Origin: Pseudomonadota bacterium
Lineage (GTDB): Bacteria; Pseudomonadota; Alphaproteobacteria; UBA8366
Assembly (NCBI GenBank): GCA_036339585.1
Contig: JAYZAS010000018.1
Coordinates: 1 to 64,000 of the forward strand
Direction of reading: 5' to 3'
DNA length: 64,000 bases
Positions 3,829-57,653 of the stretch are shown here, one piece after another (the stretch's first letter is position 1; every line of letters starts with the position of its first letter). The notes under the pieces are model-generated. The model had not been told where the DNA came from, did not search any database, and saw only the letters and a program-made list of their open reading frames with translations. The position numbers and the translations under genes were made by a program.

Positions 3829-4605
3829 TCACCGCTCTGACATGTATCCCATATCAGCAACTAAATCATCCAGGGCATTTATGACTTTGGCAATTTGTTT
3901 TTGAGAAAAAGTATTTCTCCACTCCCCGCTATTCCTTCTCGAAATGTGACCAGATTGAAAACCAGTATTCAAATCAAAAGAACGGAACGATCCGTCAGCA
4001 CGCCCAACGACCATTTTGTTATGGACGTAATCTTTTTCCCTTATCTTCCTTTGAACTGCGCTTTCAGTTCTTTTGATCAGTTTCTTAATCGCTCTCTTGT
4101 CATATTTCGAAGAAATTACCCTAGCCATATCTTTGCTAATTCCACAGTCGATAAATTCACTGAGTGCCAGAATTAAGTTGATGGTGTCCAATTCTAAATC
4201 TTCGTATTTGACGACAAACAACAGTCCTGATTTGAAGGAATTATAATGTTCCATTACTGATCGATGATTCAACGCCACCTCTATTGCCCGGTCTAAATCG
4301 CACTTCGTAAAGTCAAAAAATGATGCGCATATGTCATATGGATTACGCGTATTAACAACAAATTTTGACTTCGGTAAATTTGGGTTCAAAAGCGAATGGA
4401 TTTTTAGAACATATCTGCTGTTTGCATTAGTGTCGGCGATAGCATGGTCCCTGAACAGGTTTAACCAGTCCCTCTCGTGTTGGAGTTGCTCTTGCGGGTG
4501 TAGAGCAAATCGTTTCGTTAAATATATTTCTCTGATGACATTTGTTGTCCACATGGAACCGGTGCGAGGAGTTCCGGTCACCCAAACTGTATTAAACTTA
4601 ACCAT
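3829..4605 (-). CDS. Sulfotransferase-domain protein
   Basis: A 258-residue protein with both PAPS-binding signatures of sulfotransferases. The 5'-phosphosulfate loop is TGTPRTGSMWTTN (residues 10-22) and the 3'-phosphate motif is RNPYDICAS (87-95). VVKYEDL at 131-137 matches the conserved segment that follows in the family. Such enzymes transfer sulfate from PAPS to an alcohol, amine or sugar. The acceptor is not evident and no PAPS-synthesis or polysaccharide genes are adjacent. No signal peptide is visible, so it is probably cytoplasmic. The ATG at 4605 is the first residue before the beta-strand leading to the P-loop, supporting this start. Confidence 0.72.
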   Translation of the reverse strand: MVKFNTVWVTGTPRTGSMWTTNVIREIYLTKRFALHPQEQLQHERDWLNLFRDHAIADTNANSRYVLKIHSLLNPNLPKSKFVVNTRNPYDICASFFDFTKCDLDRAIEVALNHRSVMEHYNSFKSGLLFVVKYEDLELDTINLILALSEFIDCGISKDMARVISSKYDKRAIKKLIKRTESAVQRKIREKDYVHNKMVVGRADGSFRSFDLNTGFQSGHISRRNSGEWRNTFSQKQIAKVINALDDLVADMGYMSER

Positions 4606-4748
4606 AATTTAATTGCATCGAAAAATTCTGACCGAAGCTAGTTTTAACGCATAACGTATGTGGCATCTATGCTGCCGATATTGTTTACGTCAATATCGAT
4701 ACAGGGTGATTTGAACCAGACGAAACAGTAGGGCCCTAACCTATACCT

Positions 4749-4949
4749 TCACTCATTGCCGTCACTAACAAGGACATTCACTAAGGAACCATGAGTAACA
4801 GTGTACTGCAGCTTATTCGGGTTACAACACACAGTGCAATCATAAATCTCTGTGTTAGAACCTTCGAAGGACTGATCTATTTCAAGGTCGACTTCAATTT
4901 CATTGAAACAAAAGTGGCAAGTTACAGTTAGTGCTGTTTCAGCTGACAT
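4749..4949 (-). CDS. Small CPXCG-type cysteine-rich protein
   Basis: The chosen product is 66 residues beginning MSAETALTVTCHFCF. It has a CxxC pair (CHFC) and about 30 residues later DCTVCC, the arrangement of the Cys_rich_CPXG family, a short probable zinc-binding protein of unknown function widespread in proteobacteria. An in-frame ATG at 5018 would add 23 residues, but the family has very short N-termini and that ATG lacks a ribosome-binding site. An AAGAG lies 13 bases before the chosen ATG. It is transcribed divergently from the selenium-uptake operon. Confidence 0.6.
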   Translation of the reverse strand: MSAETALTVTCHFCFNEIEVDLEIDQSFEGSNTEIYDCTVCCNPNKLQYTVTHGSLVNVLVSDGNE

Positions 4950-5053
4950 TTGACAATTTACTCTTAGGTTTGTTGCACTCTCTTTAACATCCTGATTGGG
5001 GACGTAACCATTTTGCATGATGAATAATCGCTAATGTTAAAATAAAGTCGGCG

Positions 5054-5150
5054 CAATCATATTTTTTGCACCCAGTTATTGCGAAGTGTTGGTGTGCTGA
5101 GGCAAAAATGTTTTCCACAATTATATTTTTTGCCACCATTACTTGAAAAG
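5054..5150 (+). repeat. Imperfect direct repeat upstream of the selenium-uptake operon
   Basis: Two related units of about 33 bases, 5054-5086 and 5118-5150, each begin CAAT(C/T)ATATTTTTTGC followed by a similar ACC...TTA.TTG..AAG tail. They lie 64 bases apart in the roughly 280-base gap between the divergent CPXCG gene and the transporter operon. They could be a duplicated regulatory site or simple A+T-rich similarity. No protein function is suggested. Confidence 0.35.
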
Positions 5151-5228
5151 CACCGGGACTTTTTATATGAAACGCAAGCACAGCGAACGGGTATCAATAC
5201 ATTTCAGAAAATATCGAAAGCAACATTT

Positions 5229-6083
5229 ATGAAAAAGATACTATTAATATGTATAGTAATTTTTGGGTTCTCGAAGCATGTAACAGCCGCAGAATTTGTT
5301 TTTACAGCAATACCAGACCAAGACGAAAGTGCACTTAAAGAGCGGTTTAATAAAATTGCTGGATACTTAGAGAAAGCGCTCTCAATAAAAACTAGGTATA
5401 TACCGGTAAAATCATACGCTGCAGCGGTTACCGCCTTTCGAAACAACCAAGTACAACTTGCATGGTTTGGAGGTCTTTCTGGAGTGAGAGCCAGACAGCT
5501 AGTAAAGGGGTCAAAAGCAATTGCTCAGGGATTAGAAGACCCGTTCTTCGAAACTTATTTCATCGCACACGAATCAAGTGGCCTTAAACCAAGTTCAAGT
5601 TTTCCAAAGGGGATTGCTGGAAAGACATTTACCTTTGGCTCGAAGGGGTCTACTTCAGGACGTTTGATGCCAGAGTTTCACATCAGAAAAGCATTCGGCA
5701 AAACTCCTGATAAAGTGTTTAAAAGAGTGGGCTTCAGTGGCAGTCACTCGCGCACGGTTGCTTTAGTGAACAGCGGTGCATACGAGGTGGGTGCAGTTAA
5801 TTTCAAAGTGTATAAAAAAGAGCTTAATGCGGGTAAAATCGATCCAAAGAAGGTATCTATCATTTGGAAAACGCCTGGATATCCGGATTATAATTGGTCC
5901 ATCCGCGGGGATGTTGACAGAAGATTTGGTAAAGGGTTTACCGAAAAGGTCCAGAAGGCATTAATCGACATGAAAGACCCTGTGCTTCTTCTTTCATTTC
6001 CTCGAAAAAGGTTTATCAGAGCCGTAAATAAAGATTTTAAACCAATCTTAGACACGGCAGTTGAAATTGGACTAATCGATTAA
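5229..6083 (+). CDS. PhnD-like substrate-binding protein, putative selenate/selenium-oxyanion ABC transporter
   Basis: A 284-residue periplasmic binding protein of the phosphonate/phosphite (PhnD) superfamily. Residues 1-20 form a signal peptide (MKKILLICIVIFGFSKHVTA, cut before AEF). The opening AIPDQDESALKERF, then QLAWFGGLSGVRAR and GSKGSTSGRL, follow the PhnD pattern but match most closely, from memory, the group annotated as putative selenate ABC transporter binding proteins. Context supports selenium: the ABC and permease genes and a SelD fusion follow without gaps. The ATG at 5229 is chosen over an upstream in-frame start at 5079 because it begins the signal peptide. Substrate choice among selenate, selenite and phosphonate is inference. 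Confidence 0.82.
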   Translation: MKKILLICIVIFGFSKHVTAAEFVFTAIPDQDESALKERFNKIAGYLEKALSIKTRYIPVKSYAAAVTAFRNNQVQLAWFGGLSGVRARQLVKGSKAIAQGLEDPFFETYFIAHESSGLKPSSSFPKGIAGKTFTFGSKGSTSGRLMPEFHIRKAFGKTPDKVFKRVGFSGSHSRTVALVNSGAYEVGAVNFKVYKKELNAGKIDPKKVSIIWKTPGYPDYNWSIRGDVDRRFGKGFTEKVQKALIDMKDPVLLLSFPRKRFIRAVNKDFKPILDTAVEIGLID

Positions 6084-6090
6084 TAAAACT

Positions 6091-6747
6091 GTGGCGTTGT
6101 TCCAACTCAGCGAGGCTTGTGCCTCATATAAGGGCAAGCGAGTTCTCAATAAAATCTCGCTTGAAGTCGAACAGGGCGAAAAAATTGCATTGGTAGGTCG
6201 AAGCGGTGCCGGAAAATCAACACTGCTTCGGCTACTTTACGACAATCATGTTGAGGAATGCGCCTTTTTACCCCAAAACCTGGGACTGGTACCTAATCTC
6301 TCTGTTTTCCATAACACATTCGTCGGAAGACTTCATAAAAACTCAACTCTTTACAATCTGGCTAACCTCATTCGCCCTTTATCTCATGAGCAAAATGCTG
6401 TGCTTAAAGTCCTTAAACAACTTGAGCTTGCAGACAAAATTTTTGCTCCCGTTGGAGAATTGTCAGGAGGCCAACAGCAACGTGCGGGCATAGCCAGAGC
6501 ACTTTATCAGGGTTGCAATATATTTCTTGGAGATGAACCAGTGTCGGCAGTCGATGAACGCCAAGCATGGAGCGTGATGGAAGCTATTACCAATAATCAT
6601 GAAACAGTTGTGCTAGCTATGCACGACGTTCAGCTTGCATTGAGTTTCTGTAGCAGGATCATTGGCCTATCGTCCGGCAAAGTCATCCTAGACCGGAAAT
6701 CAACCGGTATGGTTTCTTCAGACCTCGCTGAACTTTATGGCGCTTGA
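6091..6747 (+). CDS. ABC transporter ATP-binding protein (PhnC-like, putative selenium-oxyanion uptake)
   Basis: A 218-residue cytoplasmic ATPase that starts with GTG seven bases after the binding-protein gene. Walker A is GRSGAGKST (36-44), the ABC signature LSGGQQQRAGIARAL (124-138), Walker B FLGDEP (145-150) and the H-loop MHD (177-179). A short Q-loop region (FLPQNLGL, 59-66) is present. It powers the two-domain permease encoded next, whose start overlaps its end by 11 bases, implying translational coupling. Assignment to selenium rather than phosphonate rests on the downstream selD fusion and on the absence of any C-P lyase genes. Confidence 0.85.
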   Translation: MALFQLSEACASYKGKRVLNKISLEVEQGEKIALVGRSGAGKSTLLRLLYDNHVEECAFLPQNLGLVPNLSVFHNTFVGRLHKNSTLYNLANLIRPLSHEQNAVLKVLKQLELADKIFAPVGELSGGQQQRAGIARALYQGCNIFLGDEPVSAVDERQAWSVMEAITNNHETVVLAMHDVQLALSFCSRIIGLSSGKVILDRKSTGMVSSDLAELYGA

Positions 6748-8248
6748 TGTGTCAACACCCCTAATTCCAAAATCTCCGTTAGTTCGGACGAGCCTTTGGT
6801 TTGTTTTGGTAGCATTTGGCTGCCTTCTCTTTGCCGACATCGAGATAACAACCCAAGATCCATGGCCAGAGATCAAGAGACTCGGCATGGGTTTGATACA
6901 ACCGAACTTTGCTAAGTGGAAGCAAATACTTGAGGCCCTAATGATGACGTTAGCATTTGCCATCCTAGGTGTAGCGCTTGCAAATTTTACAGGTTTTTTG
7001 CTTGCGGTTGTTTTTCATTACCGTGCAGTCAGAGTTGGTTGTGCCTTTGTCCGCGCTGTCCATGAGTTATTTTGGGCTTTAATCTTCCTACAGGTTTTCG
7101 GGCTAACTGCATTGACGGGTGTTCTTGCTATTGCAATCCCTTACAGCGGAATATGTGCGAAGGTTTACGCTGAGCTTTTAGAAGAGGCTGACCCAGCCCC
7201 TATGCAAGCTATTCCCAACGGAACCTCAATAGTCTCAAAGTTTTTCTATGCAGAATTGCCTGGTGTCTGGGCCAACGTGAAAACTTATTCTTTCTATCGA
7301 CTGGAGTGCGGCCTTCGCTCTAGTGCTGTACTGGGGTTTGTTGGCCTCCCTACGCTGGGGTTTTATTTAGAGACTGCCTACAAAGAAGGCCTCTACTCTG
7401 ACCTATCAGCACTCCTAATCGTCTTTTATGTCCTAATTTCAACTGTGCGAAAGTGGATGAGACGAGAAATAATTCCAGTGCTTTTAATAGCAGCGTGCAT
7501 TGTGTTACCAGATAGCGGCGCAATGACATGGTCAAATGCTTGGCGTTTCTTTGCAGATGACATCATGCCAACTCCTATACGGAATGCAGAAATCATAACA
7601 ATACCAATATTGCTTGAAACTTGGTTTTGGTTTCAGAGTTTGATTGTAAATGAAGCATTGCCCGGAATACTCAATACAGTTGTGCTGACAATGATAGCTT
7701 TGGCGGCAACTGGGGTGTTATCGTTACTATTCTTTCCTATCATTTCACCACTCTTTTTTGGCTCAAAAATTCGACTAGCGGGACATGTTATATTAGTCGT
7801 TATTCGTTCAACACCGGAGTATGTAATTGCATTCGTCTTGTTGCAGTTATTGGGACCGTCCATGTTCCCTGCCGTCGTAGCCCTCTCTTTCCATAATGCT
7901 GCGATAATTGGGCATCTCATAGGAAACTTTACCAACCACCTTCGACTCCGACCCGACCGTTCCAATGGCATAAACCTCTATGCCTATGAAACACTTCCTC
8001 GAATTTACCCGCAGTTTTTGGCTTTTTTATTTTACCGCTGGGAAGTCATTTTTCGTGAGACAGCAATACTTGGAATACTTGGAGTGAAAACACTAGGGTT
8101 TTTCGTTGACTCCGCCTTTGCAGACATCCGCTTCGACCGTGCTATCGTGTTGATTATTATAACTGCCCTCTTAAATATAGTAATTGATGTGCTATCGCGA
8201 TCAATCCGCAGTAGATTACGTTTACAAACCTCATTGGATACTCATTAA
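6737..8248 (+). CDS. Fused two-domain PhnE-type ABC permease
   Basis: At 503 residues this is about twice a normal PhnE permease and contains two membrane modules in tandem. The first half has an EAA-like cytoplasmic loop around YAELLEEADPAP leading to AVLGFVGLPTLGF. The second has an equivalent loop around NGINLYAYETLPRIYP leading to AILGILGVKTLGF. Each half has several hydrophobic helices. A single polypeptide may therefore form the whole transmembrane pore, replacing the usual PhnE homodimer. It overlaps the ATPase gene by 11 bases and is followed two bases later by the SelD fusion, tying transport to selenophosphate production. Confidence 0.85.
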   Translation: MALDVSTPLIPKSPLVRTSLWFVLVAFGCLLFADIEITTQDPWPEIKRLGMGLIQPNFAKWKQILEALMMTLAFAILGVALANFTGFLLAVVFHYRAVRVGCAFVRAVHELFWALIFLQVFGLTALTGVLAIAIPYSGICAKVYAELLEEADPAPMQAIPNGTSIVSKFFYAELPGVWANVKTYSFYRLECGLRSSAVLGFVGLPTLGFYLETAYKEGLYSDLSALLIVFYVLISTVRKWMRREIIPVLLIAACIVLPDSGAMTWSNAWRFFADDIMPTPIRNAEIITIPILLETWFWFQSLIVNEALPGILNTVVLTMIALAATGVLSLLFFPIISPLFFGSKIRLAGHVILVVIRSTPEYVIAFVLLQLLGPSMFPAVVALSFHNAAIIGHLIGNFTNHLRLRPDRSNGINLYAYETLPRIYPQFLAFLFYRWEVIFRETAILGILGVKTLGFFVDSAFADIRFDRAIVLIIITALLNIVIDVLSRSIRSRLRLQTSLDTH

Positions 8249-8250
8249 TC

Positions 8251-10515
8251 ATGGAAACTGCTGAAACCCCAATCCTCAAAGATCTTGTCCTAATTGGTGG
8301 CGGACACGGTCACATCACGGTTCTTAAAAAATTTGGGATGAAGCCCATCCCTGGCGTTCGCCTAACTTTGATATGCCGTGACTTACAGGCGCCGTACTCA
8401 AGTATGCTTCCAGGTTTTATAGCAGGGCATTACTCATTTGATGAGTCTCACATAGACCTTGCTCCGTTAGCACGTTTTGCAAAAGCGAGATTCTTCTGCA
8501 ATGAAGTGACCATGATTGATCCCAAATCAAACCAGATTTTCTGTAAAGACCGGCCGCCCGTAAAGTACGACCTTCTCTCTATTAATATAGGCTCAGCTCC
8601 CAACACTGCGTCCGTTGTGGGAGCTGAAAATAACGTCATGCCAGTCAAACCAATCAACGGGTTTGTTGACCATTGGAATCAAATTCGCGAACGTGTATTA
8701 ACAGCATGTGGCAAAACCAGAGTAGGCATAGTCGGAGGTGGAGCCGGAGGTGTGGAAATTGCATTGGCAATTCAGTTCCGATTGAAACAGCTTTTAAGTG
8801 CACAGAAAGACCAAAGCCACGAAGTGGAATTTCACCTGTTTACCTCAAACGATATTTTGCCAACCCACAATAATAAAGTCAGAGAAAAATACCGCCGAAT
8901 CTTAACTGAGCGTGAGATAATTCTACATGCGGGCCATAAAATAGTAAAAGTCGAACCGAATACGGTTACATGCAGTAACGACACTAGTCATGAGTTAGAG
9001 GAAATTCTTTGGGTCACCATGGCGAGCGCTCAAAATTGGTTGAAAGAGAGTGGCTTAGCGGTTACTCCCGGTGGCTTTGTGAAAGTTCATGATACACTGG
9101 AATCAATTTCTCATCCCGGTATATTTGCGGTGGGGGATATAGCCGATGTAGTAAATCATCCTCGTCCTAAATCAGGAGTGTTTGCAGTGAGGCAAGGACC
9201 TCCACTTACTAGAAATCTCAGACGTGCACTACTCGGGAAACCCCTAAAACCCTTCAGACCTCAGCAGCAATTTTTGAGTCTTATTACCACCGGAGATAAA
9301 TACGCCGTTGCCTCACGATCAAATTGGGCTGCTGAAGGCAAGTTAATTTGGCATTGGAAAAATTGGATTGATCGACGGTTTGTAAAAAAGTTTAATAAAC
9401 TTCGTGAAATGGATGAAAAAAAATCACTCGATGTATCAAAGGGGTTAGCTGAACAAAATGTAATTAAAGAAATTTCGGCTATAGCTATGCGCTGTGGTGG
9501 CTGCGGTGCCAAAGTGGGGGCAACGGTTCTAGAACGAGCACTTCAGCAACTAAACCCCGTGGAACGCCCTGATGTGTTAGTCGGTCTTCATGAACCAGAT
9601 GATGCTGCTGTGGTACAGGTGCCGAAAAATAAAGTAATGGTTCATACTGTAGATGCCTTCCGCGCGTTCATTGATGATCCTTATGTGTTTGGCCAGATTG
9701 CTGCCAATCACTCAATGGGAGATATTTTCGCTATGGGCGGAGAGCCGCAGTCTGCACTTTCAATAGTCACCCTGCCCTTTGGACTTGAGGATAAGGTTGA
9801 AGAGGATTTGAAACAGTTGATGGCCGGAGCCATGAAGGTTTTGCAGGAAACCGGCACTGCGCTGGTTGGTGGACATACCAGCGAAGGTGCAGAAATGTCA
9901 CTTGGCTTTGCTATTAACGGGCTCATCGACAAAGATCGCATACTTCGAAAGGCCGGCATGAAAGTTGGCGATAAAATAGTGCTTACCAAACCGGTCGGGA
10001 CTGGTACTCTTTTTGCTGCCGATATGCGGCACAAAGCGCGTGGCAAGTGGGTACATGGTGCTTTGTCATCAATGCTTCAATCTAACAAAGCAGGCGCTGA
10101 GATTTTATTCAAACATAAAACAAATGCTTGTACTGATGTGACTGGATTTGGCCTTCTGGGGCATTTAGTCGAAATGGCTAAACCCTCACAGGTAGACGTA
10201 AATCTTGAATTAGATGCTATTCCGACGTTGGAAGGAGCCATCGATTTAATCAGAGATGGAATCTTTAGCTCCCTACAACCCCAGAATGTGCGTCTTCGAC
10301 GCGCCATAAGGAATGTGGACAGCGCCGCTAAGGAAGCCCTTTATCCAATTATCTTCGACCCTCAAACTTCGGGAGGCCTATTAGCGAGTTTGCCAGCAGA
10401 AAATGCTGACGCCTGTATCGACGAGTTAAAGATAGCCGGTTATCGTGAGAGCTCAGTGATTGGAACGGTGACCGCAAATACTGGCACTTTAGAACCCGTC
10501 ACATTAATAACATAA
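8251..10515 (+). CDS. selD: Pyridine-nucleotide-disulfide-oxidoreductase / selenide, water dikinase (SelD) fusion
   Basis: A 754-residue fusion. Residues 1 to about 390 are an NDH-2-like flavoprotein with an FAD-binding GGGHGH (16-21), an NAD-binding GGGAGG (162-167) and the second FAD motif AVGDIAD. Residues from about 405 are SelD, which makes selenophosphate from selenide and ATP. The catalytic loop reads RCGGCGAK (414-421), with Cys418 and Lys421 fitting the Cys-x-x-Lys of SelD; cysteine, not selenocysteine, is used. HEPDDAAVV and GGHTSEGAE are typical SelD segments. It follows the permease by two bases and converges on senB, so it probably serves as the SenC activity for selenoneine. The flavin domain may supply reducing power to selenite or polyselenide, which is inference. 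Confidence 0.92.
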   Translation: METAETPILKDLVLIGGGHGHITVLKKFGMKPIPGVRLTLICRDLQAPYSSMLPGFIAGHYSFDESHIDLAPLARFAKARFFCNEVTMIDPKSNQIFCKDRPPVKYDLLSINIGSAPNTASVVGAENNVMPVKPINGFVDHWNQIRERVLTACGKTRVGIVGGGAGGVEIALAIQFRLKQLLSAQKDQSHEVEFHLFTSNDILPTHNNKVREKYRRILTEREIILHAGHKIVKVEPNTVTCSNDTSHELEEILWVTMASAQNWLKESGLAVTPGGFVKVHDTLESISHPGIFAVGDIADVVNHPRPKSGVFAVRQGPPLTRNLRRALLGKPLKPFRPQQQFLSLITTGDKYAVASRSNWAAEGKLIWHWKNWIDRRFVKKFNKLREMDEKKSLDVSKGLAEQNVIKEISAIAMRCGGCGAKVGATVLERALQQLNPVERPDVLVGLHEPDDAAVVQVPKNKVMVHTVDAFRAFIDDPYVFGQIAANHSMGDIFAMGGEPQSALSIVTLPFGLEDKVEEDLKQLMAGAMKVLQETGTALVGGHTSEGAEMSLGFAINGLIDKDRILRKAGMKVGDKIVLTKPVGTGTLFAADMRHKARGKWVHGALSSMLQSNKAGAEILFKHKTNACTDVTGFGLLGHLVEMAKPSQVDVNLELDAIPTLEGAIDLIRDGIFSSLQPQNVRLRRAIRNVDSAAKEALYPIIFDPQTSGGLLASLPAENADACIDELKIAGYRESSVIGTVTANTGTLEPVTLIT

Positions 10516-10528
10516 CCTTGATGAAAAC

Positions 10529-11500
10529 TCATAAAAGTCTGTCTTTTAGATTTATAGAACTCAAAAGGGAGGACCATTCCTCTTTCTCCCTTTCAATGGT
10601 GAAAAGATGCCTTCTAGCTTCACACTGGAATGATAAATGGGCCAAAAATTTTGGTTCGTTTTCAACGCGAAGCAGTGTGCGGCGCAAACCTTCAGTACTT
10701 CCAGCCTCATAATAGCCTGCATAATCTGACCCGAGAAGCCCGACCGACCCCTCAATTTTTGATGCTATAACAGGCACTCCTGCAGCAATTGCTTCAGAGA
10801 TAACATTTGCACCCCCTTCCATTATTGAGCTTAGAACCATTAAGCGCGTCTTTGCAAATTCGCGCCGAACCTCCCAAGCCTTTACCTCTCCGCGCCATCT
10901 GTAGCGACTATTTCGCGCCATCTCAGTCTTAGCTTTTACAGCCCAATCCGGTGTATGTGCTTTTCCAAGGTGAATTACCCGGAGACGAGAAGTGTTATCG
11001 AGGTTGCGCACCGCATATGCAGCACGAAGTGGATCTTTCTCTTCACGAAGATTTCCCACAACACAGATGTCAAAATTTCGCTTGGATGGCCGGCGTTCTC
11101 CGGCCAATGGCAATGCTGACTGATGGATAGTGTGTAATTTATGTCGGTACCGAGAAGGGATAGAATAACACACCTTATCATGCAAACATGCTAAAGCATC
11201 AGCGATTTCCATCGAATACAGAGTTTCCTTTGGGTGTGTATATTGGAATTTATAAATATCGGTGCCTGATAACAAAATAATCAGGGGGCGGTCAGGAAAT
11301 TCTTTCCGGAATAGCTTAGCTGACTCTGCACTACGCCAAGCATGGATTGCGACCATCAAATCAGCGCGTTTTCCATCCCATACCGTTTCAACCTGTACTT
11401 GGTGATTGAGCATAGTTAATATTTTTGCCCAACGTAACGCTGTGGTTCGATTGCCATTTTTGGCAAGATTACCAGCCGGTGTGATAAGAGTTATATTCAT
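10529..11500 (-). CDS. senB: Selenosugar synthase SenB (glycosyltransferase-4-like)
   Basis: A 323-residue GT-B glycosyltransferase-like protein. The N-terminus NITLITPAGN followed by NGNRTTALRWAKIL is the hallmark of the TIGR04348 family now known as SenB. The C-terminal nucleotide-sugar domain has VVGNLREEKDP, SSIMEGGANVISEAIAAGVP and VIASKIEGSVGLLG. SenB joins selenophosphate with a UDP-N-acetylhexosamine to give a selenosugar. Its 3' end lies 13 bases from the end of the convergent selD fusion, and its start codon is only 27 bases from the divergent senA start. The placement between selD and senA is what supports SenB over a generic glycosyltransferase. Confidence 0.9.
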   Translation of the reverse strand: MNITLITPAGNLAKNGNRTTALRWAKILTMLNHQVQVETVWDGKRADLMVAIHAWRSAESAKLFRKEFPDRPLIILLSGTDIYKFQYTHPKETLYSMEIADALACLHDKVCYSIPSRYRHKLHTIHQSALPLAGERRPSKRNFDICVVGNLREEKDPLRAAYAVRNLDNTSRLRVIHLGKAHTPDWAVKAKTEMARNSRYRWRGEVKAWEVRREFAKTRLMVLSSIMEGGANVISEAIAAGVPVIASKIEGSVGLLGSDYAGYYEAGSTEGLRRTLLRVENEPKFLAHLSFQCEARRHLFTIEREKEEWSSLLSSINLKDRLL

Positions 11501-11527
11501 ATACTTATTTTAATAAGAGCCTGCAGT
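11501..11527. promoter_or_regulatory. Very short divergent senB/senA intergenic region with an inverted repeat
   Basis: Only 27 bases separate the two divergent start codons. The segment contains CTTATT-TT-AATAAG (11504-11517), an inverted repeat with six-base arms placed near the middle. Both promoters must largely lie within the opposite coding sequences, so a factor bound here could control both genes. An AAGAG serves as a plausible ribosome-binding site for senA; none is evident for senB. Confidence 0.4.
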
Positions 11528-12829
11528 ATGACACAACCAGTTCCCGTTTCTTTTCTCTCTAATATCATTCAAGATGCTCACAAGCGATCCACCGAATTAG
11601 TATCGGGTTTAGACGAAAGTCAACTTATGGGGCCTAAACTTCGGACTGTTAATCCACTTCGTTGGGAAATCGGACACGTGGCTTGGTTTTATGAAAAATT
11701 TATTCTCCGCGACCTTTACGGTTACGCCCCCTACAATGCAGAATTTGACGATATTTATGATTCGATTGAAATTCCTCACGAAGTAAGGTGGGATTTGCCA
11801 CTTCTGCCTATGGATGAAATCTTGGACTACATAGGATGTATCCTTGAACGATGCCTTTCTCGTTTGGGACAAGGTACCGCCAGTGAAATCGACAGTTATA
11901 TTTATCAGTTTGCTACGTTCCACGAAGATATGCATACCGAAGCTTATACCTACAGTCGCCAAAACCTTGCATACCCCAAGCCTAATTTTTGCAAGTCAGA
12001 AACGTTTTTAAATGCCAACATGCTTCCTAGTGATAGTTTGGTACCAGGGGGATATTTTGAAGTGGGCGCAACAAAAAATGAAGGGTTCGTTTTTGATAAT
12101 GAAAAATGGGCACATCCCGTTCTATTGGAGCCATTCAATATATGCAAGACACCGGTAACAAACTGGGAGTATAGGGAGTTTGTTATGGATGGGGGCTATC
12201 TTAGGCATGAGTTTTGGAGTGGTGAAGGTTGGGATTGGCGCCAAACTGAGCAAGCAGAGTGTCCCATTTATTGGCAACGGTCAGGTGAAGGCGACTGGAT
12301 TGAACGTCACTTTGACACTATTAGAGAATTACATCTGAATCAGCCCGTAATTCATGTCAACTGGTATGAGGCCAATGCATATTGCTCGTGGGCTAAACGT
12401 CGCTTGCCTTCAGAAGCAGAGTGGGAGGCTGCTGCGCTTGGAGAGCCCAGCCTAGATGGTAGCGTGCTCACTAACTCAAAAAGAAAATTTCCGTGGGGAG
12501 ATGCTCCGTGCGATTCAAATCTAGCTAATCTTGATGGCTACGCTCTAAGCCCGATAGATGTCGGGGCGCTGCCAAAAAGTGACAGTGCATTTGGCTGCCG
12601 CCAAATGATTGGAAACGTTTGGGAGTGGACAGCAAGTACGTTTGCACCATTTGATGGCTTCTCACCGGATGCCTACAAAGACTATTCCCAACCAGTATTT
12701 TACGAGACAAAAGTACTCCGCGGCGGTGCCTGGGCCACTCGCAGTCGAATGATCACAGCTCGTCATCGAAATTTTTACACACCAGAACGACGCGACGTGC
12801 TGGCTGGATTCAGAACTTGTAGCTTGTGA
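11528..12829 (+). CDS. senA: Selenoneine synthase SenA (EgtB-like iron enzyme)
   Basis: A 433-residue protein with a DinB-like N-terminal domain and a C-terminal formylglycine-generating-enzyme-like domain, the EgtB architecture. The iron-ligand histidines fit EgtB: His50 in WEIGHVAW and His132/His136 in HEDMHTE. The FGE part contains NVWEWTAS and RGGAWATRSRM, with the substrate-handling arm EAEWEAAA. EgtB makes the C-S bond of ergothioneine; SenA makes the analogous C-Se bond between hercynine and a selenosugar. The adjacent senB and selD fusion favour SenA. EgtD and EgtE are not in the window, so hercynine must be made elsewhere. Confidence 0.88.
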   Translation: MTQPVPVSFLSNIIQDAHKRSTELVSGLDESQLMGPKLRTVNPLRWEIGHVAWFYEKFILRDLYGYAPYNAEFDDIYDSIEIPHEVRWDLPLLPMDEILDYIGCILERCLSRLGQGTASEIDSYIYQFATFHEDMHTEAYTYSRQNLAYPKPNFCKSETFLNANMLPSDSLVPGGYFEVGATKNEGFVFDNEKWAHPVLLEPFNICKTPVTNWEYREFVMDGGYLRHEFWSGEGWDWRQTEQAECPIYWQRSGEGDWIERHFDTIRELHLNQPVIHVNWYEANAYCSWAKRRLPSEAEWEAAALGEPSLDGSVLTNSKRKFPWGDAPCDSNLANLDGYALSPIDVGALPKSDSAFGCRQMIGNVWEWTASTFAPFDGFSPDAYKDYSQPVFYETKVLRGGAWATRSRMITARHRNFYTPERRDVLAGFRTCSL

Positions 12830-12890
12830 AAAAAAATCCGATAACTGTATAGTTAACCAGATCATTCTCTTCGTTACTTGGGAGCTAGCC

Positions 12891-14060
12891 ATGTTGCAAT
12901 TTGAACTTACCGAAGACCAACGGATGATGTTGGACACAGTAAAGCGAGTTCGTAAAGATGTAATCGAACCAAATGCTAAAAAGTGGCTCGATGGAGAATT
13001 CCCATATGAAAATATGGATGCTTTAGCGGAGATTGGGATCCTTGGCATGGCCGTGCCAGAGGAATATGGCGGCATCGGAGCTAGTGTCCTCGACACGGTT
13101 CTGGTTCTCGAAGAAATCGCTAAAGGCTGTTATGTCACTGCGATGGCTGTCTTGGGAGAGGTAGGTACTCAATGCAGAATTCTCTCCCATTATGGTTCTG
13201 ACGAACTTCGAGAAAAATACTTGCCCAAGTTACTCAAAGGAAAATGTATCCTAGCTATCTGTATGACAGAACCTGATTGTGGCACAGACCTAGGTAGTAT
13301 GAAAACCAATGCATCTGTAATGAATGATCGAGTGGTTTTAAATGGCGCTAAAACAATGATCAGTCGGGCGGAAGAAGCGGATCTTTTTGTAATCTTTACT
13401 AGGGTCAACAACGCGCCTGGAACAAAGGGGATTGGTTGTGTTTTTGTAGAAAAAGCTACTAAAGGACTAACTGCCGATGCCTGCTATCATACCATGGGCG
13501 GCGAGAATTTAGCCGATGTAAGATTTGAAGACGTAGAGGTACCCATAGAAAATTTAGGCTTAGGTGAGGGGTCATTAAGGAAGTTACTTGGAGCATTCAA
13601 TACCCAAAGATGCCTTAATCCGGCAATCTGTTTAGGCATGGCAGAAGCCTCCCTTGAGGAATCCATTCGATTCATGAGGGATCGGAAAGCCTTCGGCAAT
13701 TCAATTGGTGACTTTCAAGGGATGCGCTGGAAGGTAGCAAGCATGCTCACTGAAATTGAGGCTGGCAGGTCTATTCTGTATAGAGCTGCCGCAACGGCTG
13801 AGCCTTTTCCAAATCCAACGCTGGCTGCCATGGCCAAAATATATGTAAACGAAATGTCAATAAAGGTTTGCAGTGAGGGTGTTCAATTGCATGGCGGTTA
13901 CGGTTTTCTTGATGACTTCGCCGTTTCACGAAATTATCGAGGAGTACGTTACGGAACCCTTGGCGGGGGAACTACCGAAACACTGCGCAATTTCGTTGGC
14001 CGGGAACTTGTGGAAAGAATGGACTTAGAAACCGGTGTTGCGGGAATGGGGCTTTTTTAA
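12891..14060 (+). CDS. Acyl-CoA dehydrogenase-family flavoprotein with altered catalytic-base positions
   Basis: A 389-residue member of the family, with the N-terminal helices, the mid beta-domain (CMTEPDCGTDLGS, 125-137) and the C-terminal helices (VQLHGGYGFLDDF, 331-343). At the two places where the catalytic glutamate normally sits it has Gly359 (LGGGTTET instead of a YEGT-type motif) and Gln239 (FNTQR where isovaleryl-CoA-dehydrogenase types have an ER pair). It may therefore catalyse another reaction or use another base. A GGGAG is six bases before the ATG. It follows senA by 61 bases in the same direction, but a functional link to selenium is not implied. The enoyl-CoA hydratase gene converges from the other side. 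Confidence 0.82.
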   Translation: MLQFELTEDQRMMLDTVKRVRKDVIEPNAKKWLDGEFPYENMDALAEIGILGMAVPEEYGGIGASVLDTVLVLEEIAKGCYVTAMAVLGEVGTQCRILSHYGSDELREKYLPKLLKGKCILAICMTEPDCGTDLGSMKTNASVMNDRVVLNGAKTMISRAEEADLFVIFTRVNNAPGTKGIGCVFVEKATKGLTADACYHTMGGENLADVRFEDVEVPIENLGLGEGSLRKLLGAFNTQRCLNPAICLGMAEASLEESIRFMRDRKAFGNSIGDFQGMRWKVASMLTEIEAGRSILYRAAATAEPFPNPTLAAMAKIYVNEMSIKVCSEGVQLHGGYGFLDDFAVSRNYRGVRYGTLGGGTTETLRNFVGRELVERMDLETGVAGMGLF

Positions 14061-54045: not shown

Positions 54046-54381
54046 CTAGTCTTCAAAAATTAAATTACTCTTTCGGTGTGGTAATTGCAGGGTGAGACCA
54101 TTTAATGCCTCAATCATTCTAAGTTGGCATCCGAGTCGGGAAGTTTGGGTAAGGCCTGTAACCAAATCAAGCAACCCTTCTTCCTCCTCACAGGGTGCTG
54201 GTAATTTTGAAATCCACGCCGGGTCAACAATCACATGGCAAGTAGAACAAGCCATCTGCCCTTCGCAAGCTCCTTCCATGTCTATACCATTACGATGCGC
54301 TATATCTAATACCGAACACCCCTCTGGCGCATCCACTTCCTGAGCGTCGCCTTCAGCACTGAGAAATACTATTTTGGCCAT
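54046..54381 (-). CDS. fdx: ISC-type 2Fe-2S ferredoxin
   Basis: A 111-residue adrenodoxin-like ferredoxin. The four cluster cysteines are C39, C45, C48 and C85, in GACEGQMACSTCHV and LGCQ, the CX5CX2C...C pattern. In iron-sulfur-cluster assembly it supplies electrons to the IscS/IscU complex. The chosen ATG at 54381 overlaps the end of the upstream cysteine desulfurase gene by 29 bases, so the pair are coupled. No IscU, IscA, HscA or HscB gene is visible in the window. Confidence 0.9.
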   Translation of the reverse strand: MAKIVFLSAEGDAQEVDAPEGCSVLDIAHRNGIDMEGACEGQMACSTCHVIVDPAWISKLPAPCEEEEGLLDLVTGLTQTSRLGCQLRMIEALNGLTLQLPHRKSNLIFED

Positions 54382-55558
54382 TATAATTTTTCTCATAAGT
54401 CTGAGTAATATTTCTCAGAGATAGCACCGCCTGAATAATTTCTTCAGCAGCAAAAATCACTTCTTTTTCAACTGTGAACCTGCCAAATCCAATGCGAATA
54501 GCATTGTGCAATAGACGCTTCTCAACACCGATCGACTGCAAAACATGGGATGACGCTACTGAGGACGTAGTGCAGGCTGATCCCGAGGACAGTGCTATAC
54601 TCGGCAAACGCATCATTAAATCCTGTGCGTCTATGTCTAGAAATGATAAATTTAGATTTCCAGGAATGCGTCTTTCGAGGTCCCCGTTTAATTTTACATC
54701 ATTTAAACTATCGAAAATTTGCGCTAAAAATTGGTCCCTTAAGTGCCTAATTCGGTCAGCTTCTTCAGAAATGTTTTCCGAACCTAAACGACATGCCTCC
54801 CCAAAACCTATGGCAAGCGGTGCAGGGACGGTACCAGAGCGCAATCCACGTTCCTGTCCACCACCATCTAATAATGGTTCAATTTTGATCTTTGGCTTCT
54901 GACGAACGTACAATGCCCCAATACCCATTGGTCCATAGAGTTTGTGAGCGCTAATACTGAGCAAGTCTATTCCCATCACGTTAACGTCAATGGGTATTTT
55001 TGCAACAGCTTGCGCAGCATCAGTGTGAAACAACGCACCGACCCTCGCGCACAGACTTGCTATTTCCGTTACGGGCTGAATCACTCCTATTTCATTATTG
55101 ACCATCATAATCGAAACAAGTGCGGTGCGCTCACTCAATGCATTTTCCAAAAGGTCAAGATCAAGCAAGCCGCTCTTTTCAACTGGAAGGTAAGTAACGG
55201 TGAACCCCTCTCGTTCCAACCGAGCGCAACTCTCCAGCACACATTTGTGTTCAGTTGCACAGGTGACGACATGATTACGGCCAGATGAAATCGCCCGTGC
55301 AGTCCCTTTCACCGCTAAATTGTTGGCCTCCGTTGCGCCAGACGTGAAGGTTATCTCATTCGGCTTAGCGCCTATCAGTTTAGCTATATGAGCTCGTGCG
55401 TCCTCAACTGCCTGTTCAGCTACCCAACCATAAGCGTGATCACTGGAATGCGGATTGCCAAACATCTCGTGAAACCATGGCAACATAACATCGCGAACGC
55501 GAGGGTCCACTGGCGTTGTCGCTTGATAATCAAGGTAAACAGGTTCATCTGTTGTCAT
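54353..55558 (-). CDS. Cysteine desulfurase, IscS-like (group I)
   Basis: A 401-residue PLP enzyme. The Schiff-base lysine is Lys206 in SAHKLYGP and the catalytic cysteine Cys329 in SSGSACTTS, on a mobile loop. His104 in ATEHKC is the usual active-site histidine. It converts cysteine to alanine and hands persulfide to scaffold or thiolation proteins. Order on the strand: cysE, the second cysteine desulfurase, this one, ferredoxin. It is 26 bases downstream of its paralog. Candidate sulfur donor for MnmA and iron-sulfur assembly. Confidence 0.92.
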   Translation of the reverse strand: MTTDEPVYLDYQATTPVDPRVRDVMLPWFHEMFGNPHSSDHAYGWVAEQAVEDARAHIAKLIGAKPNEITFTSGATEANNLAVKGTARAISSGRNHVVTCATEHKCVLESCARLEREGFTVTYLPVEKSGLLDLDLLENALSERTALVSIMMVNNEIGVIQPVTEIASLCARVGALFHTDAAQAVAKIPIDVNVMGIDLLSISAHKLYGPMGIGALYVRQKPKIKIEPLLDGGGQERGLRSGTVPAPLAIGFGEACRLGSENISEEADRIRHLRDQFLAQIFDSLNDVKLNGDLERRIPGNLNLSFLDIDAQDLMMRLPSIALSSGSACTTSSVASSHVLQSIGVEKRLLHNAIRIGFGRFTVEKEVIFAAEEIIQAVLSLRNITQTYEKNYNGQNSISQC

Positions 55559-55584
55559 ATTAGGCCACCGAACTCATTCTTCGA

Positions 55585-56694
55585 TCAAGCAGCATCAACT
55601 TGCCGTTTAATCATTTTTAAACTCGACACCCAGGCATCTACGAAACGCGCCATTTCCTCTTCTTTTGTTTCAAAGCCAATACTTACCCTTATAGATGACG
55701 CTGACATACTTTCAGATAATCCCATCGCTCTCAGAACGTGGCTAGGGCCCACCTTTCCAGATGAACAAGCAGAGCCAGAGCTAATAGCAATCCCTGAAAG
55801 GTCGAGGGCTATTACCTGAGTTTCTGCCGATACTCCGTCAACCCCAAATAAACTCGTATTCACCAAACGGGGTGTTTTGTGTCCGTGGATTACAACTTCC
55901 GGTGCCTGTTCAAGGATGGCCTGCTCCATTCCATTCCGAAGCTTGGCAATATGGCCTGCCTTATTCAGCATCTCGTTTACATGCATTACCGCTGCACCAA
56001 AACCAGCGATGGCCGGGACGTTTTCGGTGCCGCCACGGCGCCCCCGCTCTTGACCGCCGCCATTCATTGTTGATGCAATCTCGATCCCAGGGGCTAGAAT
56101 CAACGCACCGACACCTTTGGGCCCACCTATTTTGTGCGCAGACAGCGTCATCATATCTACGTCTAACTCGTTCATCTTTAGCGGAATTCGGCCAGGTGCT
56201 TGAACGGCGTCACAATGAAACAATGCTCCATAATCGTGCGCAATACCCGCTAACTCAGCAATAGGCTGAATAACACCGGTCTCATTATTGGCCAGCATAA
56301 CCGAAACCAGCACAGAATTCCCGTTACGTCGCAAAAGAGTCTCGAGACACTCCGGACTAACAAGACCATCCTGGTCAACAGCAATTTTTTCCACATGACC
56401 CACAGCCTCAAGAACCGAATGATGTTCGACGCCTGAGACGAAAACCCGCCTACATTTACTGCCAGCTAACGCTAATGTGTTTGCTTCGGTGGCACCGCTA
56501 GTGAAGATAATATTTTCATGCGTTACGCCAAATGAACTGGCGATTTGACCACGTGCTTTCTCTACCATAGCGCGAGCACGTCTTCCACTGCTGTGAATAG
56601 ATGATGGGTTGCCTGAAATGTCCAAAGCTTCGATGACACAACGTTTTACCGCAGGCCTCATTGGTGTTGTTGCGTTGTGATCAAGATAAATCAT
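55585..56694 (-). CDS. Second cysteine desulfurase (NifS/IscS family)
   Basis: A 369-residue paralog of the preceding enzyme. Lys188 in SAHKIGGPKG is the PLP lysine and Cys310 in SSGSACSSGK the nucleophile. It starts with the conserved MIYLDHNATTPMRP; an in-frame TTG 39 bases earlier (56733) is unlikely. The two copies could serve different acceptors, for example iron-sulfur assembly and tRNA thiolation, or the selenium pathway. Which is which cannot be read from sequence. Confidence 0.91.
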   Translation of the reverse strand: MIYLDHNATTPMRPAVKRCVIEALDISGNPSSIHSSGRRARAMVEKARGQIASSFGVTHENIIFTSGATEANTLALAGSKCRRVFVSGVEHHSVLEAVGHVEKIAVDQDGLVSPECLETLLRRNGNSVLVSVMLANNETGVIQPIAELAGIAHDYGALFHCDAVQAPGRIPLKMNELDVDMMTLSAHKIGGPKGVGALILAPGIEIASTMNGGGQERGRRGGTENVPAIAGFGAAVMHVNEMLNKAGHIAKLRNGMEQAILEQAPEVVIHGHKTPRLVNTSLFGVDGVSAETQVIALDLSGIAISSGSACSSGKVGPSHVLRAMGLSESMSASSIRVSIGFETKEEEMARFVDAWVSSLKMIKRQVDAA

Positions 56695-56752
56695 CGTTGA
56701 AGAACCACACAAAGTTCGGCTAAATAGTGCCAATGAATTTTTAATATGATGT

Positions 56753-57454
56753 TCATTTATTTTTTTTTATCTTTTTTTCCAGAGCTTCCTCTAGCAAATC
56801 AATTCGCGCCTGTAAGTTTGCAACATGCTCAACTAATCCCTCTAACGATCGCACTAGTGGATCGGGAAGCTCGCCGAGTGGTGTGCCATAAGGCCGAAAA
56901 ACCTCTGCAACATCAATATCTTTGTGTTCCACAACCCGAGCCGGAATTCCTACAACTGTAATTGCTGCGGGCACATCTTGCGTAACGACAGCATTTGCAC
57001 CAATGCGCGCTCCGGCCGAGACATTTATCGGACCCAAAATTTGAGCACCTGAACCAACAATAACCCCATCGCCCAGTGTTGGGTGACGGTTCCTTTCGCG
57101 CTGACTTTCTGAGTTAATCGATGGAGCAATTCCTCCTAAGGTTACAGCCTGATAAATTGTTACATCATCACCAAGTTCCGCTGTCTCACCAATCACTACG
57201 CCCATGCCGTGATCAATAAATAAGCGCTTGCCTATTGAAGCACCCGGATGAATTTCTATTCCCGTCAAAAATCTTCCAAATTGGGATATTAACCGCGCTA
57301 AAAACCAAAAATCCCGCTGCCATGCAAGGTGAGCGAAACGATGTAAAACCACGGCGTGGAACCCAGAATAACAGAAAAAAACCTCAGCACGCGAGCGAGC
57401 CGCAGGATCGCGCTGCATCATGGCATCAATTTCATCACGAATAACTTTGAACAT
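56753..57454 (-). CDS. cysE: Serine O-acetyltransferase
   Basis: A 233-residue hexapeptide-repeat acetyltransferase. HPGASIGKRLFIDHGMGVVIG and ELGDDVTIYQAVTLGG are the conserved catalytic histidine region and left-handed-helix coils. It makes O-acetylserine, the precursor of cysteine, which then feeds the two desulfurases beside it. The ATG at 57454 (MFKVIRDEIDAMM) matches family starts; a GTG at 57466 would add four residues. A C-terminal EALEKKIKKNK tail is lysine-rich. Confidence 0.92.
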   Translation of the reverse strand: MFKVIRDEIDAMMQRDPAARSRAEVFFCYSGFHAVVLHRFAHLAWQRDFWFLARLISQFGRFLTGIEIHPGASIGKRLFIDHGMGVVIGETAELGDDVTIYQAVTLGGIAPSINSESQRERNRHPTLGDGVIVGSGAQILGPINVSAGARIGANAVVTQDVPAAITVVGIPARVVEHKDIDVAEVFRPYGTPLGELPDPLVRSLEGLVEHVANLQARIDLLEEALEKKIKKNK

Positions 57455-57653
57455 TGGCCTATGCACTAGTGTTCCGGTGTAGTTCAGTTATTTTTCACTT
57501 AAGCAAACAAACATGCTAAACTGACTCTCTAACTTTAACAAAAAATTTAATTTAATCCTGATAACAACAACTGGATATATAATCCTCGACTCCGGGGGTC
57601 AAGATTAGCCAATTATACATGCGAATGCACTATTAACGTAACAATATGACGGC

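Follow-up and report, generated by a model that had tools for sequence, protein, structure and literature searches.

The six-gene locus described here is probably the operon through which the cell takes in and activates selenium, with genes for selenoneine synthesis attached (we put the probability at about 0.7). It lies within the window, which is the whole 64,000-nucleotide stretch of DNA that was analysed. We propose that an ABC system made up of a binding protein, an ATPase and a fused permease would import selenium as an oxyanion, with selenite the likeliest candidate. In a fusion protein, the flavoprotein part may help to reduce this ion, and the SelD part would make selenophosphate. Selenophosphate would then supply three users: SenB for selenosugar, SelA for selenocysteine and SelU for tRNA 2-selenouridine. 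SenA would join the selenosugar to hercynine, provided by an EgtD encoded elsewhere in the genome, to give selenoneine.

Gene Content and Layout

All six reading frames are intact and lie at the positions given by an earlier note on this DNA (Table 1), and its joints of 7, -11 and 2 bases among the first four genes are exact. It had also placed senB and senA after the SelD fusion. Both genes are present, but senB is on the minus strand, an orientation that the note had left unstated. Because senB converges on the SelD gene, with their stops 13 bases apart, and diverges from senA, the six genes are not one transcription unit; the first four may be transcribed together as an operon. The senB/senA divergence is kept in 16 of 16 loci having both genes. 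Judging from the sequence, any promoters of these two genes would have to extend into adjoining coding sequence. A promoter scan of positions 4600–13000 found no enrichment (11 sites, vs. 15.6 in shuffled sequence), and a terminator scan of the same region gave 10 sites, vs. 8.2 in shuffles. Across the whole window at gathering scores, Rfam identified four tRNAs and no other RNA element.

Table 1. Features of the locus, with positions in the window and the models used for family assignment.
Feature	Positions	Strand	Model or remark
Periplasmic binding protein of ABC importer	5229-6083	+	TIGR04553
ABC ATPase, PhnC-like	6091-6747	+	TIGR02315, below PhnC cut-off
Fused double permease, PhnE-like	6737-8248	+	503 aa; TIGR01097, below cut-off
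Flavoprotein (NADH-dehydrogenase-like)-SelD fusion, selenophosphate synthetase	8251-10515	+	TIGR03169 + TIGR00476
senB, selenosugar synthase	10529-11500	-	TIGR04348; convergent with SelD, divergent from senA
senB-senA intergenic gap	11501-11527		27 bases between divergent starts; from sequence
senA, selenoneine synthase	11528-12829	+	NF041186 + TIGR04373 signature

Family Assignment of the Importer

Family calls were made from NCBIfam profile scores against curated cut-offs. These models place four of the six proteins, while the ATPase and permease are only PhnC-like and PhnE-like. The earlier note had suggested a search with putative selenate-transporter models, and the binding protein does belong by score to TIGR04553 (365 bits, cut-off 250), a hypothetical equivalog family that NCBIfam names "putative selenate ABC transporter substrate-binding protein". 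The "selenate" in that name is a prediction, and the pocket of our protein suggests selenite instead. A phosphonate importer (PhnCDE) was rejected since all three components fall below their cut-offs: 125 bits for PhnD (cut-off 261.1), 160.5 for PhnC (TIGR02315, 266.1) and 212.3 for PhnE (TIGR01097, 216.7). The ATPase has a Walker A motif at residue 36, the signature motif at residue 124 and Walker B at residue 144, and the PhnE match is split into two stretches, as would be expected of a fused double permease.

Linkage of the Importer to Selenium Genes

We scanned 289 genomes of the host's class. The binding protein was found over cut-off in 11, SenB in 10 and SenA in the same 10; seven genomes have both the binding protein and SenA/SenB (P = 1.2e-9, or 3.2e-5 within the 60 SelD genomes). 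SelD is present in 10 of the 11 binding-protein genomes, vs. 25 of the 77 whose matches are all weaker and 25 of the 201 that have no match. A selenium gene lies within about 9.5 kb at 8 of the 10 other TIGR04553 loci in the class, vs. 0 of 19 below-cut-off relatives (Fisher 1.0e-5), with the caveat that the DNA available around some controls is short (only 3.1 kb for two of the 19). The binding-protein tree includes three of these 19.

A second sample consisted of named loci, the best 80 of at least 482 relatives, and is biased to close relatives. In these best 80, a selenium gene is in reach at 44 loci, and at 22 of the 35 that have 9 kb on both sides. Many, though not all, of the 36 loci among these 80 with no selenium gene in reach are explained by contig ends. 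SelD is encoded in 71 of the 80 genomes (near the locus in 36, and in 28 of 36 and 7 of 8 of the rest); of the nine genomes in the 80 in which no SelD was found, eight are labelled MAG. The class scan and the named loci are not independent, since five binding-protein sequences are identical in both. Cultured relatives carrying the locus include Tamilnaduibacter salinus, Zhongshania antarctica, Marinobacterium ramblicola and Amphritea balenae.

Several observations count against the linkage. Two of the ten class loci (G091 and G227) have no selenium gene in reach, one genome (G007) has the importer over cut-off with no SelD detected, and genomes with weaker PhnD-like matches are themselves richer in SelD than those with none (P = 2e-4). 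Overall, the linkage between importer and selenium genes is real, which bears out the connection drawn in the earlier note. Three of the 10 SenA-SenB genomes (G011, G053 and G066) have no binding protein over cut-off, and it is therefore not required for selenoneine.

The SelD Fusion and Selenium Users in the Genome

Both halves of the fusion pass their models (TIGR00476 at 308.7 bits for SelD, cut-off 125; TIGR03169 at 481.3 for the N-terminal flavoprotein, cut-off 310). In an alignment with E. coli SelD, residues C418 and K421 of the fusion correspond to C17 and K20. We also considered TIGR04369 (fusion_not_SelD), a SelD-like fusion with no tie to selenium, and rejected it because the full-length score of 502.6 bits is below the cut-off of 700.

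In a search of the whole genome, this fusion was the only SelD over cut-off, and the weak matches were ThiL and PurL. The same genome holds SelA, SelB, tRNA-Sec and SelU, as well as a UGSC-type gene with an in-frame TGA. This does not fit the self-contained unit of the earlier note, in which a dedicated importer and SelD serve selenoneine synthesis alone. That arrangement does recur in compact form in four class genomes (G104, G113, G187 and G281), and EgtD also lies at senA in four of the named loci (best 80 of at least 482). However, the only SelD here would be shared with the selenocysteine and SelU pathways, and EgtD is on a different contig from the SelD fusion and senA. In G007, selA and selB come after this transporter in a genome that has no SenA/SenB over cut-off, and in five named loci (L081, L100, L106, L120 and L125) the transporter adjoins SelU. 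We consider a unit dedicated to selenoneine highly improbable, and favor a general selenium entry and activation operon.

Probable Selenoneine Synthesis

The earlier proposal of selenoneine-type synthesis is supported. SenB scores 383 bits on TIGR04348 (cut-off 300) and SenA 474.3 on NF041186 (cut-off 420). EgtD, the hercynine source, was found on contig C21 of this genome (G000) at 399.3 bits (cut-off 290.9). An ergothioneine enzyme (EgtB) was rejected as the identity of SenA: the score of 320.3 is below the cut-off of 360, and the EgtB model matches nothing else in the genome. SenB keeps the active-site residues of characterised SenB (N17, T20, K155 and E228, aligning with N20, T23, K158 and E231), and the motif EGGAHV reads EGGANV.

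The earlier note had suggested looking for a C-Se lyase elsewhere in the genome; EgtE had no match over cut-off there. Of five weak EgtE matches, the two in the window are cysteine-desulfurase-like and themselves below curated cut-offs. We set aside the need for such a lyase. Since the selenoxide is reported to fragment spontaneously (PMC10903977), a lyase may be unnecessary for selenoneine here.

In Variovorax paradoxus, the sen cluster (SenA, SenB and SenC) likewise brings together SenA, SenB and a SelD homologue (PMC9814287, PMC10891094, PMC10702425). Unlike that cluster as outlined in those reports, our locus has an importer joined to it and a flavoprotein-SelD fusion that holds the only SelD over cut-off in the genome. 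In our locus, senB is antiparallel.

Over its full length, the best solved match of the window's SenA is OvsA (8ux5, 8u41), the selenoxide synthase of ovoselenol synthesis, at 297 bits and ahead of solved SenA at 189. The enzyme might then be of OvsA type, with ovoselenol or another selenohistidine as its product rather than selenoneine. OvsA itself scores over the cut-off of the SenA model (427.5 vs. 420), and our tree does not settle its placement among the SenA rows. However, on the TIGR04373 signature (cut-off 71) the window's SenA scores 85.6 and solved SenA 93.8, whereas OvsA reaches only 56.7. The window's motifs HExMHxEA and RNFxxPxRRDxxAGFR are those of solved SenA, while OvsA has HQNMHVES and RNFYHPDRCDVYTGFR. 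EgtD, present in this genome and at senA in four relatives, also argues against an OvsA-type enzyme, as do the two genes after senA, which encode an acyl-CoA dehydrogenase and then an enoyl-CoA hydratase rather than a methyltransferase. Signature and motifs favor SenA, and we consider an OvsA-type product very unlikely; selenoneine is the probable one.

The Binding Pocket and the Imported Ion

Ten pocket residues of the binding protein (I28, D30, Y63, S141, T142, S143, H173, N191, D220 and Y221) are identical to those of picocyanobacterial PhnD1 (7s6g, 7zck, 5lq5, 5lq8), which belongs to the same NCBIfam family at 45.6 and 40.5% identity. This phosphite-type pocket is conserved in 89–91 of 91 aligned rows. 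Because PhnD1 passes the TIGR04553 cut-off with the same phosphite pocket, and selenite resembles phosphite, we consider selenite a likelier cargo than selenate. The earlier note had allowed either; the pocket favors selenite.

The strongest argument against a selenium cargo is the measured phosphorus affinity of PhnD1. The ABC system could import phosphite, phosphate or some other small oxyanion (sulfite, for example), with selenium neighbors that do not reflect its cargo. PhnD1 proteins are the closest solved relatives of our binding protein (266 and 257 bits, both over the TIGR04553 cut-off), and phosphorus compounds are the only ligands measured in the family. PhnD1 is reported to bind phosphite and, more weakly, phosphate (PMC10284923, PMC5700983). 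PhnD1CE, for which tesA is a conserved adjoining gene, is presented as binding phosphite and probably importing phosphate (PMC10284923), unlike our selenium reading. A fold search also ranks PhnD1 first, being the best Foldseek match of the AlphaFold model (TM 0.66–0.68, rmsd 4.6–4.8). We read the mismatch as an open vs. a closed form of the protein and make no claim about pocket geometry from this model.

On the other side, TIGR04553 loci are linked to several distinct selenium pathways, the linkage is absent for the 19 weaker relatives, and the binding protein co-occurs with SelD. The PhnD1 strains tested are reported to be unable to grow on phosphite (PMC10284923). Beside the STS motif, 90 of 91 rows have K139 and all 91 have G140, where PhnD1 has E and S/N, so its ligands need not carry over to our family. 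The phosphite importer PtxABC is also described as having a phosphite pocket with a tyrosine cap (PMC5700983), as in our family. However, its protein is only 26–27% identical to ours, falls below the TIGR04553 cut-off at 152.3 bits, and carries Q at the position of D220 and A or S at that of N191. A cargo unrelated to selenium therefore seems unlikely to us, and a selenium oxyanion remains the preferred ligand.

Implications for Bacterial Selenium Uptake

How bacteria take up selenium is an open question, and a family that tracks selenium genes this sharply makes it directly testable. Here, the importer shares one gene run with the cell's only SelD, and the phosphite pocket of its solved relatives points to a named candidate ligand. 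Our literature search, mostly of titles and abstract openings, returned no account of an importer with sen genes or of a selenium role for TIGR04553.

A more tentative idea, possible though we would not bet on it, is that TIGR04553 is the high-affinity importer of selenium that has been missing in bacteria, taking up selenite through a tyrosine-capped three-oxygen phosphite pocket, and that picocyanobacterial PhnD1CE is likewise a selenite importer. PhnD1CE is reported in all 97 genomes examined, which is puzzling for strains that cannot use phosphite (PMC10284923), and a flavoprotein-SelD fusion and ybbB have been reported in those picocyanobacteria (PMC1273633). If the idea is true, PhnD1CE would serve that fusion and ybbB, its phosphite affinity would be a case of molecular mimicry, and the selenite reading would offer a possible resolution of the published paradox of PhnD1.

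The six genes and their surroundings

The six genes lie within 5229–12829, where the earlier note had placed them, and the joints of 7, −11 and 2 bases that it reported were confirmed. Of the six proteins, four score above the curated cut-offs of NCBIfam models. The importer ATPase retains its ABC motifs. NCBIfam names the binding-protein family, TIGR04553, as a putative selenate binder. C418 and K421 of the fused SelD are the counterparts of the catalytic positions C17 and K20 of E. coli SelD, and SenB retains key residues N17, T20, K155 and E228. The senB and senA genes are divergent, with 27 bases between them. Just upstream of the island is a sulfotransferase-domain gene, 623 bases from the binding-protein start.

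Features of the island, the rest of the window and the own genome, with scores in bits (curated cut-off in parentheses)
Feature	Location	Strand	Score
Binding protein	window, within 5229–12829	plus	TIGR04553 365 (250)
ATPase, PhnC-like	window, within 5229–12829	plus	under PhnC cut-off
Permease, PhnE-like	window, within 5229–12829	plus	under PhnE cut-off
Flavoprotein-SelD, single chain	window, within 5229–12829	plus	SelD TIGR00476 308.7 (125); flavoprotein TIGR03169 481.3 (310)
SenB	window, within 5229–12829	minus	383 (300)
SenA	window, within 5229–12829	plus	474.3 (420)
Sulfotransferase-domain gene	window 3829–4605	minus	
Two adjoining IscS/NifS-type cysteine desulfurase genes	window 54353–57466	minus	under curated cut-offs
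cysE serine acetyltransferase	window 54353–57466	minus	passes cut-off
ORF with in-frame TGA (D-stop-GSC, UGSC-type context), downstream of selA, selB and tRNA-Sec	own-genome stretch L038 9315–9863; contig C10 from 45314		
Pair of additional weak PhnD-family matches, near each other	contig C10 12441–14622		TIGR04553 102.4 and 70.9

The importer is linked to selenium genes

A single sample of 289 genomes from the class was scanned with models for the binding protein, SenB, SenA and SelD. The binding protein was over cut-off in 11 genomes, with a gap in scores from 364.6 to 222.3 bits; SenB was found in 10, SenA over cut-off in the same 10, and SelD in 60. Binding protein and SenA-SenB occurred together in 7 genomes (chance 1.2e-9, or 3.2e-5 inside SelD genomes). 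SelD was present in 10/11 binding-protein genomes, versus 25/77 with weaker PhnD-like matches only and 25/201 with none; since the last two groups also differ (P 2e-4), the SelD trend is partly general.

Linkage was then compared between the 10 other over-cut-off binding proteins of the class (about 9.5 kb per side where contigs allow; 163,272 bases) and, at the same thresholds, the 19 weaker class relatives with loci given in the scan (305,902 bases). A selenium gene was near in 8/10 case loci versus 0/19 controls (Fisher 1.0e-5), the exceptions being G091 and G227. The selenium reading of the island is well supported. Genome G007 has selA (583.1 bits) and selB (413.9) after the transporter, and a search of that genome with the SelD model found none. 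The same importer thus accompanies selenocysteine genes elsewhere.

The island layout, including minus-strand senB, is identical in the own genome (G000), G104, G113, G187 and G281. G124 and G210 carry binding protein, SelD and senB on one contig, with about 1.5 kb extra between SelD and senB, and their senA match on a different contig. In four genomes the binding protein is present but SenA-SenB are not over cut-off (G007, G091, G123, G227), and in three SenA-SenB are present but the binding protein is not over cut-off (G011, G053, G066). Stand-alone SelD has one in-frame TGA in G091, G123, G187, G227 and G281, and in six plus four genomes of named relatives, so this SelD is itself likely to be a selenoprotein; the flavoprotein-SelD fusion is also present in G187 and G281. 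G123 and G327 are apparently one genome.

Among named relatives we analyzed the best 80 of at least 482, building neighbor clusters without reference to selenium. After the transporter's own three, the top clusters in these best 80 were the SelD fusion (28 loci), SenB (26) and SenA (16), followed by a CoxL-like molybdenum hydroxylase read by eye (8), stand-alone SelD (7), an unnamed cluster (6) and EgtD (6). By tblastn, a selenium gene was in reach at 44 of these 80 loci, and at 22 of the 35 among them whose flanks each span 9 kb or more. SelD was near in 36 of the 80 and elsewhere in the genome in 28/36 and 7/8, a total of 71/80. Within the same best 80, senA and senB diverged at 16/16 loci with both (15/15 by called ORFs), SelD and senB converged in 22/24, and 11 loci had senB without senA in reach. 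The sen-linked binding proteins are dispersed over the tree, with at least 10 changes forced by supported branches. At five loci with senB but no senA in reach (L049, L052, L056, L097, L124), the CoxL-like gene (cluster 6, by eye) adjoins senB, and 4/5 have an amidohydrolase-like gene (cluster 15).

One SelD, three pathways

The own genome comprises 2.79 Mb in 25 contigs, with completeness stated as 100. The SelD model is over cut-off once, in the window fusion; two weak matches proved to be ThiL and PurL. SelA (588.5) and SelB (443.2) are adjacent on contig C10, with tRNA-Sec 181 bases past selB, and a hairpin of −20.2 kcal/mol follows the ORF with the in-frame TGA. UGSC is a known selenoprotein motif. 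A "UGSC-containing protein" is among the entries of PMC5029168. SelU is on C16, at 341.7 (219.75). The hercynine synthase that the earlier note had proposed looking for elsewhere in the genome is there: EgtD is on contig C21, at 399.3 (290.9), so hercynine can be made. The sole match to the EgtB model in the own genome is the window SenA, itself under cut-off.

One SelD with three users argues against a unit for selenoneine alone. The proposal of a self-contained selenoneine unit does not hold, as the single SelD is common to the SelA/SelB, SelU and SenB pathways and EgtD lies on another contig.

Selenoneine or ovoselenol

The best solved match of the window SenA is the ovoselenol enzyme OvsA (297 bits), with solved SenA at 189. 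OvsA also passes the SenA model NF041186, at 427.5 (420), so this model by itself does not settle selenoneine, and annotation by it cannot separate selenoneine from ovoselenol genes. A tree left the position of OvsA among SenA rows without resolution. The TIGR04373 signature (cut-off 71) scores 85.6 for the window protein, 93.8 for solved SenA and 56.7 for OvsA. In four relatives (L069, L082, L092, L093) EgtD lies directly at senA, at loci that also hold the importer, the SelD fusion and senB. The signature, the motifs, EgtD in the genome and these arrangements favor selenoneine as the predicted product.

The ligand pocket

The nearest solved relatives of the binding protein are two picocyanobacterial PhnD1 proteins (266 and 257 bits), then PtxB (110), HtxB (67) and E. 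coli PhnD (58). Against the TIGR04553 model, the printed stretches of the two PhnD1 proteins score 335.6 and 298.9, above the cut-off, and PtxB scores 152.3, below it. The phosphite pocket of Prochlorococcus PhnD1 is described as Y46, S126, T127, S128, H158, D205 and I11, capped by Y206 with D13 and N176 (PMC5700983). The window counterparts are, in that order, Y63, S141, T142, S143, H173, D220, I28, Y221, D30 and N191, and all ten are retained in 89–91 of 91 family rows (86 distinct). Among the 19 weaker relatives, S141, S143 and H173 occur in 19/19 and Y63 and T142 in 14/19, versus D30 in 4/19, N191 and Y221 in 3/19 each and D220 in 1/19.

Selenite and phosphite are both pyramidal with three oxygens, selenite having a lone pair where phosphite has P-H; selenate has four oxygens, and sulfite is a further isostere. 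By likeness to phosphite, we infer that the pocket may be of a selenite type. However, before the STS motif (S141-T142-S143) the family has K139 (90/91) and G140 (91/91) where PhnD1 has E and S/N, which argues against a simple equation of the two pockets.

PhnD1 was present in all 97 picocyanobacterial genomes of one study's database and bound phosphite at least one order of magnitude tighter than phosphate; the tested Synechococcus strains did not grow on phosphite, phosphorus starvation does not induce PhnD1 according to work cited there, and phosphate transport was proposed (PMC10284923). The main text of that study does not contain "selen", and its single named ligands are phosphorus compounds, alongside commercial cocktails. 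Prochlorococcus and Synechococcus have selD with an NADH-dehydrogenase-like extension, plus ybbB (PMC1273633). A selenite role for PhnD1 would fit.

Conclusions

This analysis contributes the linkage seen in the case-control comparison, the argument from a single SelD, the gene arrangement in G007, a selenite interpretation of the pocket and the connection with PhnD1. The island is most likely an operon for shared selenium entry and activation, to which selenoneine genes are attached.
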